Position numbers and translations under genes: made by a program. Below the pieces are notes generated by a model. It was not told where the DNA came from. It made no database searches and saw nothing but the letters and a program-made list of their open reading frames with translations. 64,000 bases of DNA, from positions 62,001 through 126,000 of the forward strand of contig JAFGRW010000115.1 of assembly GCA_016934935.1 (NCBI GenBank). Direction: 5' to 3'. Origin of the DNA: Spirochaetota bacterium. GTDB lineage: Bacteria > Spirochaetota > UBA4802 > JAFGJZ01. This document shows positions 5,033 to 52,811 of this stretch, in pieces (position 1 is the first letter of the stretch; every line of letters begins with the position of its first letter).

Positions 5033-6886
5033 ATGAAAAGAATAAGTTTACTAATAACAACTCTCATATTATCAGCAGCAATGCTTTTTAATGTCAGCTG
5101 CGGCGAAGGCAGTGGTTCAGCATCTTCCAAAACCGGCGAGCCGCAACCTTCTCCCTCCTCAAGTGCAGAGGATGATTCTGTTAAAGAACCCGCAAAGGGG
5201 TCTGATGTAACAACATCAACTCCAACCGATGCATCATCTTCGTCTGTTATCACCGAAGAGACTGTTGTCGAGGAGATAAACACAATAGTCGAAACCGAGG
5301 AATCAACGTCAGATGAAGAAACAACTGAATATAACGAAACAGCGTCTGAAGAGTCAGACAATGGAACCGGAGAGATTGCATCGGACAATACCGGAGAAAG
5401 TGATTCATCAACTGACGGAGCTCCTACCGAAACCGAACTTACCTCTGGTTCCGATACATTAGCAGAGTCTGACCCGGAAAATACCGATTCAACAGAATCA
5501 GACATAGCCGTTAATGATTCGGATGGCACAACCAATTCTGAAGCAGATGAGAGTGACGGGACTGATATTCCTGAAATTCCTGCAGTTGCCGAAACCCCTG
5601 CTCCAGCGCCATCAGCCGAAGAAATACTTGACGAAGAACTGCCTCTGATTGCAGCTGATGACGATGAACCCGTTACTGATGATACATCAATTACTGATGA
5701 AGCCGGGATCGTTCTGGAAGACGCGCAGGTAGTTGCCGAACCATCGGAAGGCAGCGAATGGTTTACCGTACCCGACCAACCGCTTGACAACCCTGAATAC
5801 GCTGCACTTGCAGAAGAGCTGGAACAGCTTGTAGAGAGAGCTGAACAGATAATCAAACTGATTGATAAAATGCCTAACGAGAAGGCTCGCCAGGCACAGA
5901 TAAAACGACTCGAAGATATCGAGCAGGCAATTGCAAGCATCCGGAATCAGATAGGTTACAGTGATGTTCAAAGCGGAATATACACCGCAAGCGCCAATCA
6001 GCAGCTTGACCTTACCGTTTCGGGAATAACCGAACCGGGCTACTACAGCCTGAGTGTTGTTGCAAAAAACGTTTTTGGCACTTTACCAGACAACTACGGC
6101 TACTTTAACCTCTCTGTTTCTGATAACAGCGGTTCTGCCGCAGGAAATATACTTGTACCAGCTTCAGATAAAACTTATCAGAAAGGCTCCGCGCTTGTTT
6201 ATCTTAATCCAGGCACCAATAATCTGAAATTGAAATGGACCAATGACTATTATATCGAGGGTTCTTACGATGCTAATATCCAGATAAAAAGCATAATGCT
6301 CAACAGAACTTCAGCAAGTGATCGTGCTCAACTCGCACCGTACAAAGATGACCTTACACGTTCGGCTTTACAGTATACTTCTTCATCTGATGGTGTATTC
6401 TGGACCAGGGACGGGGCGCTTATCTATCAATCAGGCAACTCAATCAGCTTCAACTATCCAATGCTCGATAAGGGTCGATACCAGATCGTAATCTGGGCAA
6501 GAAATCATGGCGAAATCAAATCAAAACCTCAATTCAAGAGATTTGAATTTGACGTCTATGCCTCAACCGGCGAAAGCGAACTTGTCTCTGTAAATGCTCA
6601 TCATAAAAACTTCAAAGCCGGCAAGGGCAGCATGGATATTTCGGGTGGTGACACAACTATCGAGATCACCTGGATCAATGACGGTCCCGAAGATGTAGTA
6701 CTTGAGCTCAAACAGATAGAACTTAAAAGAATCGGCGATTATCAGGGTTCGGCTCTTTCGGCCTACCTTTTAGGAACCGGCTCCGGCAACCGTCTGCTGA
6801 TCATAATATTACTTATATTTTTCACCTCTATTGGAATTACTCTTTCAATCTATCATAAGCGCCAATGCATAAGAGTACGTAAATAA
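5033..6886 (+). CDS. large acidic Ser/Thr/Glu-rich lipoprotein with C-terminal transmembrane segment
   Basis: RBS ATGGAGGTCACA then MKRISLLITTLILSAAMLFNVSCGEG (lipobox); ~200 aa low-complexity S/T/E/D region; C-terminal LLIIILLIFFTSIGITLSIYHKRQCIRVRK. Confidence 0.8.
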   Translation: MKRISLLITTLILSAAMLFNVSCGEGSGSASSKTGEPQPSPSSSAEDDSVKEPAKGSDVTTSTPTDASSSSVITEETVVEEINTIVETEESTSDEETTEYNETASEESDNGTGEIASDNTGESDSSTDGAPTETELTSGSDTLAESDPENTDSTESDIAVNDSDGTTNSEADESDGTDIPEIPAVAETPAPAPSAEEILDEELPLIAADDDEPVTDDTSITDEAGIVLEDAQVVAEPSEGSEWFTVPDQPLDNPEYAALAEELEQLVERAEQIIKLIDKMPNEKARQAQIKRLEDIEQAIASIRNQIGYSDVQSGIYTASANQQLDLTVSGITEPGYYSLSVVAKNVFGTLPDNYGYFNLSVSDNSGSAAGNILVPASDKTYQKGSALVYLNPGTNNLKLKWTNDYYIEGSYDANIQIKSIMLNRTSASDRAQLAPYKDDLTRSALQYTSSSDGVFWTRDGALIYQSGNSISFNYPMLDKGRYQIVIWARNHGEIKSKPQFKRFEFDVYASTGESELVSVNAHHKNFKAGKGSMDISGGDTTIEITWINDGPEDVVLELKQIELKRIGDYQGSALSAYLLGTGSGNRLLIIILLIFFTSIGITLSIYHKRQCIRVRK

Positions 6887-9468: not shown

Positions 9469-10067
9469 TCAGTCAGTAATTTCAACTATTACAGAATTTT
9501 CGTAATCAACACTAATCTCGATATTATCAGGAGAATTGATTACAGCCTTTAAGGCAAAATCGGCAAAACGGTTGTCTTCATCGTAAACCGTATACAGGCC
9601 ATCGGTATATTTGGAAACATAAGCAATGCCGTAGTAATCTGCTCCATAGCCGATAACATCACACTCCTGAGGCAAGCCCCAATAGCTGATTTTTTCACCA
9701 CTCTCAAATTCAAATTCAATCATGAAAGAACTGTAGTCTGATTTCCCCCAACTGGAACCATCGTCACCTGACCAACCGTAAAAATAACTTATAATTAACT
9801 GACTCTCCTCTCTGCTCGCTATACCATTTTCGTCAACAGCTGTATCTTCATATGAAATTCTTAAGCCCATTTCTCCAAAATCTTCAGAATCGGGTCTGTA
9901 TTTAACTGCATTAATTTTTACAATAACTGAATTTACCGTTTCATTTTCAACTATTAAAGTAAAATCCTTAGAATATGGTTCTCCAATTTCTGTACATTCA
10001 TCTGCATCCTTAAAACACGATACTGCTAACAAAACAAGTAGCAATGCGTATATCTTTTAATCATCAT
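9469..10067 (-). CDS. small lipoprotein, copy 2; out of frame near the N-terminus (single A missing in A4 run, plus-strand 10055-10058)
   Basis: ATGATGATTAAAAGATATACG... with SD TAGGAG; adding one A gives MMIKKIYALLLVLLAVSCFKD; C-terminal half nearly identical to the 10270-10875 paralogue. ORF track begins at a TTG (10044). Confidence 0.65.
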
Positions 10068-10077
10068 TTAACTACTC

Positions 10078-10140
10078 CTAATACATCTTTTTTATTGCTT
10101 GCTTGTCAAGATCAGAAATGATATAGTTATCGATAAACTC
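10078..10140 (-). pseudogene. C-terminal remnant of a second astacin-like protease
   Basis: FIDNYIISDLDKQAIKKMY* aligns with PIKNYTISTRDKEAIKKMY* at the end of the 10886-12244 protease; stop abuts the lipoprotein RBS in the same way. Confidence 0.75.
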
Positions 10141-10225
10141 AAATTTTCGAAAATATTTTTTAGATACTATATATATATTAATATCATTATTACATGTATA
10201 ACAGTACATTCTGAAATAATAAAAC

Positions 10226-10259
10226 AGTCAAGATACTAGAAACATCCTGACTGTTTTGT
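10226..10259 (-). terminator. stem-loop terminator after lipoprotein copy 1
   Basis: ACAGTCAAGATACTAGAAACATCCTGACTGTTTTGT; homologous to 12449-12478. Confidence 0.6.
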
Positions 10260-10269
10260 CGGACTGGCA

Positions 10270-10875
10270 TCAATCAGTAATTTCAAATATTACAGAATTT
10301 TCGTAATCAACACTGATCTCGATATCATCAGGAGAATTGATTACAGCCTTTAAGGCAAAATTGGCAAAACGGTTATCTTCATCGTAAACCGTATACAGGC
10401 CATCGGTATCCTTTGATACCCAGGCAATGCCGTAGTAATCTGCTCCATAGCCGATAACATCACACTCCTGAGGCAAGCCCCAATAGCTGATTTTTTTACC
10501 ACTCTCAAATTCAAATTCAAACATGAAAGAACTTAAGCGATTTGTCTTATCCCACATAGTTTTATAAATACCATAAGGACCCCATCCAAAAAAGTATTCA
10601 ATAGTCAATTGATTTGATCCACCACTATCAATAACGGCTTCATCTATTTCCCAGTCTGCTTGTCCAAACCTAACCACCTTCTCAGGATCATCCTCATACG
10701 ATCTCAGATATTCCAAGTTTTTAATTGACATGTCAACAGAATCAACTGAATTATTGGTTACAGTTAATATAAATTCTTTCCAAACAACTTCAGGATGCCC
10801 AGGTGGAAGATCATCATTATTACAACAAGAAGCTAATAAAGCGAGCAACATTAAACAACCAATTCTATATATCAT
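10270..10875 (-). CDS. small lipoprotein, copy 1, partner of the astacin-like protease
   Basis: MIYRIGCLMLLALLASCCNNDD lipobox; RBS TAGGAGG includes the stop codon of the upstream protease. Confidence 0.8.
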   Translation of the reverse strand: MIYRIGCLMLLALLASCCNNDDLPPGHPEVVWKEFILTVTNNSVDSVDMSIKNLEYLRSYEDDPEKVVRFGQADWEIDEAVIDSGGSNQLTIEYFFGWGPYGIYKTMWDKTNRLSSFMFEFEFESGKKISYWGLPQECDVIGYGADYYGIAWVSKDTDGLYTVYDEDNRFANFALKAVINSPDDIEISVDYENSVIFEITD

Positions 10876-10885
10876 TTTCAGCCTC

Positions 10886-12356
10886 CTAATACATCTTTTT
10901 TATTGCTTCTTTATCTCTGGTAGAAATTGTATAATTTTTAATTGGATCTCCTTTTTTCATACCCTGCCGATTTTTTGTAACAAGAGCTCCATTATAGTGC
11001 ATGATTGAAAGATAATCGTAAGATGTCGGTGTATACGAGTATGTTTTACTGCGTTTTACATAAACCCAGTAAGGTATACCCCATTTCTTCTTTTTTACCC
11101 ATGTATAGTATTTTTTGGTCTTATCGAATTCTTTGGTATTACTGTTTTTACCATACTGTTTATAGAAATCCGCAACATCAATATATTCATCCCTGTCCCA
11201 TCTCTGATGCTCATGTCTTAACCCAAGAGTGTGTCCCAGTTCATGACGCGGAACCCTGTGAAACCAATTATTATTTTCATTAATTAAACCCGAATCCAGA
11301 TACAGTGTACTTTTTCCAAAAGCTCGCCCAACTGTGGCGCGACCATAAACATTATCCAGATTTTTTTCGGCCATCAAAACATAACTTTTGAATCCAAAAG
11401 ACGCCAGAAAATCATTTAAAGTCGAACTTTTATAATAACTAAAAGAAATTTTATTTCCTGAGGCACTTCGCCAATCACTCATTGCATCTTTTAGCTCTTG
11501 TTTGAGTTCGTCACTTATACGGCCCCACCTGTAATTAACCTTGCCCTTTGACCAGAAACTTGTACCCCTCGTATAATGTCCTCTGCTTGTACCCTGATCT
11601 TCAAAATCATCTTCACCGCCAATTACATCAGAGCAACCCATAATATCTTCTACAACCTTATCCAGATCTTCTCCACGGGCAAAAGCGTTCAGTATCTCTA
11701 CCTGAATCATGCCGCTAATCGTTGAAGGGTCTACACAGATATCCTCATCAAGAACCAGAATGTCATCTTCTCTAGTTACAAAATCCAGTGACTCCGCGTC
11801 TGTAGAGTCAGGAGTTAACAGATTAAATGATTTTGTTTGTTCGGCCAAAAGCTCTTCAAGCTCATCTTCAAGACTAACGATTTGCTCAGTTTCTTCACCA
11901 CCGGTGCTTCTTGTGATGCGTTTGCGTTTAAGCATTGTCAGGTCATCGGGCAACATTGATTCGATTCTTTCAATTGAATACGGTTCACCTTCAGTTAACG
12001 CGCTTCTCTTTTGTTCAGAATCAATTTCGATGTCATATTTTTCAAGTAAATCAAAGGTGTTGGAAACTGCAGAAAAAACCTGAACTACCTGTTTTTGAAA
12101 CGTTCTTCCGCCATTGGTTTTAGGTTGGTATTTTTCTATCTCGCCAATAAGCTCTTGAATCGATGGTTCATTATCCATTTTGTGATCATCTTTTAAAATA
12201 TCGGCTTCAACAGAATCACACCCGACTAGTAGCGGTAAAAGCAAAAATAATACTAATACCGACTGAACGACTGAACGACTGAACGACTGAACGACTGAAC
12301 GACTGAACGACTGAACGACTGAACGACTGAACGACTGAACGACTGAAATTCATCAT
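10886..12356 (-). CDS. astacin-like (M12A) zinc metalloprotease lipoprotein, currently frameshifted by an octanucleotide repeat in the signal-peptide region
   Basis: HELGHTLGLRHEHQRWDRDEY (HExxHxxGxxHE) and Met-turn SIMHYNG; ATG at 12356 with SD GAAGGGG; hydrophobic VLVLFLLLPLLVGC is in a different frame as assembled. ORF track starts at an unsupported TTG (12244). Confidence 0.85.
12261..12347. repeat. octanucleotide tandem repeat (GACTGAAC)10 plus 7 nt
   Basis: Ten perfect units 12261-12340 plus GACTGAA, counted directly. Confidence 0.98.
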
Positions 12357-12448
12357 TTTCTACCCCTTCAAAAATTATTTTAATATTTGAATATCATATA
12401 TACTAATATCATTATGTCAAGTATAACAGCACATTACACAAAAAAGAA

Positions 12449-12478
12449 CAGTCAGGACACAAAACGCATCCTGACTTT
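12449..12478 (-). terminator. stem-loop terminator upstream of the protease promoter
   Basis: CAGTCAGGACACAAAACGCATCCTGACTTTATT (AGTCAGGA/TCCTGACT stem). Confidence 0.6.
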
Positions 12479-12546: not shown

Positions 12547-13425
12547 TTACATTTTCTTTCTGTACACTTCCACGTTGCTTCCATTGTTTACAGTTATCAA
12601 TTGCCCGCTATTTTCAATAAACACTTTAGACATAAACGATACACCATCGATCCTGATTACTTCAGATTTCATTGATTCAAAATTATCCGAAGTTGAAACC
12701 AGAAGAATTCCACTTTCACTATTTTCTGAGGGCGGTATCAGCACTGCAACTTCCAGATTATTATCTACATACTGAATTGATGCCATACAGCTTTGATAAT
12801 CAGAGATAAACGGACACTGCTCAACTGAAATCACCGCCCTGGTTTCCCAGTTATTGCCATTGTTCTTTGAATAAACAATATTCCCTTTAGTATCAATAAG
12901 ATAGATCTCATTTTCTTTATTGCTTTTTATGGCCAGAATTTTCGAACAGTCGGGTCTGTTAACAGAATTCCAGCTTATACCGCCATCTTTGGTATTATAG
13001 ACTTCACTTTTTTTCGTTACAACATATCCCTCTTTTTCTGATGAAAAGCTAACAAGCATAATTTTGTCACTTAATATTGTTGGCAAAATTGACCAGGTTT
13101 TACCCTTGTCGTTTGAAATACCAACAGTTCCACCATTTCCGGCATGTACAAATGTACCATCAGGCATCACATCAATCGCGTACCTGCAAACTGTTTCGTT
13201 AACACCCTTTTTCCAGCTTTTTCCGCCATCTGCCGAATAGTGAGTCGCGCCCCCATAACCGGCACTGAATGCCTCTGTTTCCGAAACAAATGCTACGTTT
13301 GTCTGTGCAGAATCTATATCAGAAGAAACGCATTTCTCCCAATTTGATTTTGTTCCACAACCTAGATGTAAAGCCAATAAAAACATTGCAATAATTGCAA
13401 ATACTGCACCTGTAATCTTTTTCAT
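12547..13425 (-). CDS. BNR/Ycf48-like beta-propeller lipoprotein
   Basis: MKKITGAVFAIIAMFLLALHLGCGTKSNWEKC; repeated SADGGKSWKK, SNDKGKTWSI, TKDGGISWNS, SKNNGNNWET blades. Confidence 0.8.
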   Translation of the reverse strand: MKKITGAVFAIIAMFLLALHLGCGTKSNWEKCVSSDIDSAQTNVAFVSETEAFSAGYGGATHYSADGGKSWKKGVNETVCRYAIDVMPDGTFVHAGNGGTVGISNDKGKTWSILPTILSDKIMLVSFSSEKEGYVVTKKSEVYNTKDGGISWNSVNRPDCSKILAIKSNKENEIYLIDTKGNIVYSKNNGNNWETRAVISVEQCPFISDYQSCMASIQYVDNNLEVAVLIPPSENSESGILLVSTSDNFESMKSEVIRIDGVSFMSKVFIENSGQLITVNNGSNVEVYRKKM

Positions 13426-52787: not shown

Positions 52788-52811
52788 AAAGCTCAAAGCT
52801 CAAAGCTCAAA
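52788..52811. repeat. short heptanucleotide tandem repeat (AAAGCTC)x3
   Basis: Counted directly. Confidence 0.9.

Follow-up and report, generated by a model that had tools for sequence, protein, structure and literature searches.

A candidate phase-variable astacin-family lipoprotein of an uncultured spirochaete, with an octanucleotide array in its signal-peptide coding region

The window, by which we mean the whole stretch of DNA that was analysed (64,000 nucleotides of one Spirochaetota contig), carries on its minus strand a 487-codon open frame for an astacin-family metalloprotease lipoprotein (10886..12349). The frame has no in-frame start before a TTG within the signal peptide, and the body of the protease extends for 452 codons without a stop or frameshift. 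A preliminary description of the locus, made from the sequence alone, had placed the end of the frame at 10886 and had assigned the product to the astacins. The end lies exactly there, and the assignment was upheld by a match to Pfam PF01400 (Astacin; 3.3e-14, 53.4 bits versus a cut-off of 22.5) and by a model of the catalytic half, which superimposed on crayfish astacin (1ast) with a Z score of 18.1 and an rmsd of 2.5 Å over 171 aligned residues. The zinc motif HExxHxxGxxHE and the R-x-DRD that follows it are complete (HELGHTLGLRHEHQRWDRDEY), the SxMHY Met-turn is present as SIMHY, and both are conserved among relatives. The lipobox cysteine is conserved in 11 of 11 aligned members. The approximately 220 residues preceding the catalytic domain are probably a lipoprotein N-terminus and a prodomain, the latter role being taken from other astacins. 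Judging from these features, the protein would be lipidated, exported to the envelope and proteolytically active.

Expression signals precede the protease on the same strand. A sigma-70-type promoter, TTGACA and TATGAT separated by 16 bases, lies at 12393..12420; it was called on 11 of 12 consensus matches only and ranks in the top two of the region. Between this promoter and the upstream gene, a BNR/Ycf48-like repeat lipoprotein (12547-13425, minus strand; MKKITGAVFAIIAMFLLALHLGCGTK), is an intrinsic-terminator-like stem with a T-tract (12450..12476, minus strand) that sets the two apart. Reading along the minus strand, the SD-like GAAGGGG is followed by TAGAAA, by ATGATGAATTTCAGTC with the ATG start codon (12354..12356) and a second ATG directly after it, by ten GTTCAGTC units and finally by GGTATTAGTATTATTTTTGCTTTTACCGCTACTAGTCGGGTGT. 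The perfect octanucleotide array spans 12260..12347 on the minus strand, with 88 bp in period. Tandem Repeats Finder reported these 88 bp as 11.0 copies of period 8 at 100% match because 7 bases on the 5' side and 1 base on the 3' side also fit the period. Strictly, the array consists of ten complete units, not 11, as counted in one draft assembly (138 contigs, 89% complete, 3.75 Mb). The signal peptide continues directly with its hydrophobic core and lipobox (12216..12259, minus strand), which read VLVLFLLLPLLVGC in the protease frame.

The preliminary description had reported the SD-like sequence, the ATG and the ten units, had considered the gene OFF at its present count and in frame at 2 mod 3 units (8 or 11), had found the repeat free of stops in every minus-strand frame, and had recognised a lipoprotein h-region and lipobox in the protease frame. 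All of this held. None of the eight codons that the repeat can present (GTT, TTC, TCA, CAG, AGT, GTC, TCG and CGT) is a stop or an ATG, GTG or TTG start, so the repeat can only shift the frame. The 8-bp unit is not a multiple of three and lies between the ATG and the protease body, and the unit count modulo 3 therefore sets the frame. When the region was translated with 5 to 15 units, the ten-unit form closed after 46 aa; only 5, 8, 11 and 14 units gave full-length products (476, 484, 492 and 500 aa), and the remaining counts tested (6 to 15) gave products of 23 to 54 aa. By inspection, an n-region, a hydrophobic core and a lipobox cysteine are present in VLVLFLLLPLLVGC at counts of 2 mod 3. 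A form with two units would encode MMNFSRSVVQSVLVLFLLLPLLVGC, a lipoprotein signal peptide of textbook length. This was probably the ancestral signal peptide, with the array growing inside the n-region, since n-regions tolerate added residues.

First-order Markov simulations (20 x 64 kb) produced no array of at least three copies longer than 16 bp, versus 88 bp in the window, which rules out a chance origin of the array. For comparison, more than two octanucleotide units is the threshold at which contingency repeats have been called in H. influenzae (PMC2651432). Across ~693 kb sampled of the 3.75-Mb genome (18%, with the window itself counted in), there was no other frame-shifting array of at least four units. 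The next longest were a 9-bp repeat of 4.3 copies and a 7-bp repeat of 3.4 copies. The former (L059, 3672-3710) keeps the frame and gives a membrane-protein-like ORF an N-terminal run of KIC repeats, where length rather than frame would vary; the latter (AAAGCTC, window 52788-52811) is intergenic, ~185 bp 5' of a DHH-type phosphoesterase-like ORF. A repeat-rich genomic background was ruled out for the sampled 18% and for ~184 kb of a second genome, G143, described below. The unit pair GTTCAGTCGTTCAGTC has no second occurrence anywhere in the window genome. Three consecutive GTTCAGTC units are missing from all 45 other genomes of the order, which rules out a mobile or shared element. The sole match in the viral collection (L224, ~6635-6671) is a short run of about four CGACTGAA units at an unrelated-looking place, immediately ahead of a terminator-like hairpin, and no link to an astacin was seen there.

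Astacin relatives fall into short and long forms. A first direct search of genome contigs with the single protease protein gave no match. Within the same order, the astacins are short (~220-270 aa), most with lipobox-like N-termini, and they carry no repeat. Long-form relatives are scattered across Spirochaetota (G348, G143, G084, G352, G451, G537, G456, G404, G414 and others), and one is also carried by a Treponema MAG (L125). Where the N-terminus is covered, long-form relatives besides those in G143 show ordinary, repeat-free lipoprotein signal peptides. The repeats are therefore additions rather than an ancestral peptide motif, and the different repeat in G143 likewise rules out a conserved motif. 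A poly-G10 tract upstream of the astacin gene in G348 (L124, 3543-3552) recalls the poly-G tracts of Treponema; it was set aside as a switch since it lies roughly 140 bp 5' of the apparent -35. Relatives that are broken or reduced to remnants were found in G001, G382, G508, G319 and Treponema L125. In G001, of the same genus as the window genome, a degraded C-terminal remnant (L021, 7837-8046) lies at the syntenic position, flanked by a photolyase and by a PhoH-like gene whose end it overlaps. The Treponema gene (L125, 3785-5275) has one in-frame stop in the prodomain and is otherwise intact.

A second case of repeat-bearing genes was found in G143, which belongs to another class of Spirochaetota. 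This genome has two astacin paralogs whose reading frames carry an (AG)n tract at their 5' ends, and these are the only tracts of at least seven AG units in the entire genome. No other non-triplet array (at least three units and 14 bp) was present in the ~184 kb sampled. In L094 (C105), the order is AAGGAGGGGTAT, ATG, AAAAAGTTCATCACAAAATTAAGTTCTCTCTATA and (AG)10, with a strong SD before the ATG, and the frame closes after 43 aa; nine AG units would instead yield a 530-aa lipoprotein. Its paralog L095 (C126) differs in repeat length, with (AG)9 in frame with a 602-codon ORF. The contig begins just 5' of the L095 tract and the start codon is beyond its end, so that an ON state is suggested by the identity of the remaining preceding bases with those of L094. 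Since the two paralogs show a dN/dS of 0.37 overall (0.23-0.37 by region), the out-of-frame copy seems still to evolve as a protein rather than to drift freely. We read the pair as two members of a putative switchable family, one in frame and one out of frame, within a single genome.

From tract to lipobox, the G143 paralogs are near-identical (dS 0.14), whereas their catalytic domains share only 38% identity, which suggests that the 5' end was recombined or converted. Between the window and G143, both the repeat unit and the distance from tract to lipobox differ, and the switch was therefore probably recruited more than once. The catalytic-domain tree was largely unresolved and is silent on whether the window and G143 genes shared a repeat-bearing ancestor.

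Downstream of the window protease lies a gene for a small beta-rich lipoprotein (10270..10875, minus strand), a conserved partner that begins 10 bases beyond the stop of the protease and has its own AGGAGG. A terminator-like inverted repeat 3' of it (10221..10257, minus strand) is the probable end of a two-gene unit. Given the 10-base gap and this terminator-like repeat, both genes are probably on one transcript. The lipoprotein, probably co-expressed with the protease as its partner, could be translated from its AGGAGG even in the protease OFF state. A small lipoprotein gene directly follows nearly all long-form astacins where the sequence continues; in G084, none was seen downstream on the same strand. 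These partners diverge fast between lineages. The predicted structure of the window partner is beta-rich, although the model is poor (pLDDT 47). The partner may be an inhibitor of the protease resembling the potempins discussed below, an idea drawn from the gene layout; fast divergence would fit co-evolving inhibitors of that kind.

The window also contains a remnant of a second astacin C-terminus (10078..10209, minus strand; 28 aa, 50% identical, E=9e-5) that ends in DKQAIKKMY, followed by a second copy of the lipoprotein gene (9469..10044, minus strand; 60% identical) in which the opening codons (ATGATGATTAAAAG...) and the rest of the gene are in different frames. Together, the remnant and this copy resemble a duplicated protease-lipoprotein pair that has decayed. 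The same layout recurs in G143 C126, where a 49-aa stub, sharing 86% identity with the astacin of C105, precedes a lipoprotein 81% identical to the C105 partner, and Treponema L125 has a 13-aa astacin stub near its second lipoprotein. Because of these three layouts, stub and partner gene seem to move or duplicate together.

We consider the window locus to be a translational phase-variation (contingency) locus operated by slipped-strand mispairing, with a probability of roughly 0.8. Slippage in the array would alter the number of units. One third of lengths, those of 2 mod 3 units, would place the signal peptide and the lipid-anchored astacin body in frame with the ATG, and the other two thirds would stop after a short peptide. 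From this arrangement we infer slippage in living cells, ON/OFF production of the protease and its export as an envelope lipoprotein. The repeat exceeds chance, its non-triplet unit stands before the body, and the gene on its far side is intact. The architecture of a contingency locus, as the preliminary description had named it, is thus supported by the frame arithmetic and by the in-frame and out-of-frame paralogs of G143. It is these paralogs, with another repeat in the equivalent functional position and one copy in frame, the other out, that make a contingency locus much more likely than a repeat arisen by chance or decaying. That a single protease family carries different repeats at equivalent positions points to selection for phase variation.

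The strongest competing explanation is that the repeat expanded by accident and left a pseudogene that is permanently out of frame and decaying. Several relatives are pseudogenes or remnants, so the family is prone to loss and the OFF copy could be on its way out; the lone C-terminal remnant at the syntenic place in the same genus and the frameshift at the start of the neighbouring second lipoprotein copy are in keeping with such decay. However, the protease body is free of stops and frameshifts, every catalytic motif is kept, and the promoter and SD are intact. Decay of the window gene would also leave unexplained the independent (AG)9/(AG)10 pair of G143, which is under purifying selection. 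We therefore regard a pseudogene as unlikely.

Less probable still is an error in the unit number, in which case the true count would be fixed and in frame (e.g., 8 or 11) and the gene constitutively on. Drafts such as this 138-contig assembly can miscount repeats, but 88 bp fits within common short reads and all units are identical. Furthermore, an error would alter only the present state and not the capacity to shift, and G143 holds two tract lengths in one genome. Production of the protease at any unit number, through the internal TTG at 12244 (in the right frame within the h-region) or ribosomal frameshifting in the repeat, is very improbable, since that TTG has no SD before it and would give MLLPLLVGC with no charged n-region and a halved hydrophobic core, the repeat has no start codon in any frame, and no slippery heptamer was seen by inspection.

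The phase-variation reading can be extended, tentatively, to the gene pair as a whole. Long-form astacin and lipoprotein might constitute a spirochaete module of protease and cognate inhibitor, in which the protease is phase-variable, the partner is translatable from its own SD, and extra partners are orphan cassettes, each behind the C-terminal stub of another astacin (window 10078-10209, G143 C126 and Treponema L125). On balance we doubt that the module holds in this complete form. If it did, the recruitment of repeats in two classes would amount to repeated selection for on/off control, for example in kin competition or against host or phage exposure. A switch made of coding repeats that differ between two classes suggests that protease phase variation was selected more than once. 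The finding points at an uncharacterised protease-lipoprotein module in uncultured spirochaetes.

Most known frame-shifting contingency repeats come from host-restricted pathogens. One close parallel is Neisseria opa, in which CTCTT repeats in the leader-peptide coding region set the frame (PMC3745409). As in the window, the repeat lies inside the signal-peptide coding region and the frame of an envelope protein depends on how many units are present, but opa has a pentanucleotide, an outer-membrane adhesin and a human-restricted host, in contrast to an octanucleotide, a lipoprotein protease and an uncultured spirochaete. NalP of N. meningitidis is likewise a cell-surface protease switched by a coding repeat, a poly-C tract; about half of isolates are ON and gene loss is also common (PMC3723659). 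However, NalP is a subtilisin-type autotransporter with a homopolymer and is not homologous to astacin. Repeat-driven phase variation in a spirochaete is represented by Treponema pallidum tpr and tp0126, where poly-G in promoters regulates transcription of outer-membrane proteins (PMC7864442), whereas the window has a coding octanucleotide acting on translation. Octanucleotide repeats are predicted mediators of phase variation in Haemophilus influenzae, including tracts at the hmw genes (PMC2651432); those tracts lie upstream, in promoters, and belong to another gene class and phylum.

For the gene pair, the nearest likeness is in Tannerella forsythia, where the available part of the source describes potempins as small inhibitory lipoproteins adjoining secreted KLIKK proteases (PMC7296668). 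There too, a secreted metalloprotease gene is paired with a fast-evolving small lipoprotein gene. The likeness is one of layout: the potempin gene precedes the protease, and that part of the source describes no phase-variation repeat (PMC7296668). In the literature searched we found no description of a phase-variable astacin, an absence that is weak evidence. The switching mechanism is already known from opa and nalP. What appears new, within the material searched, is its occurrence in this protease family and this lineage, with different repeats serving in two classes.
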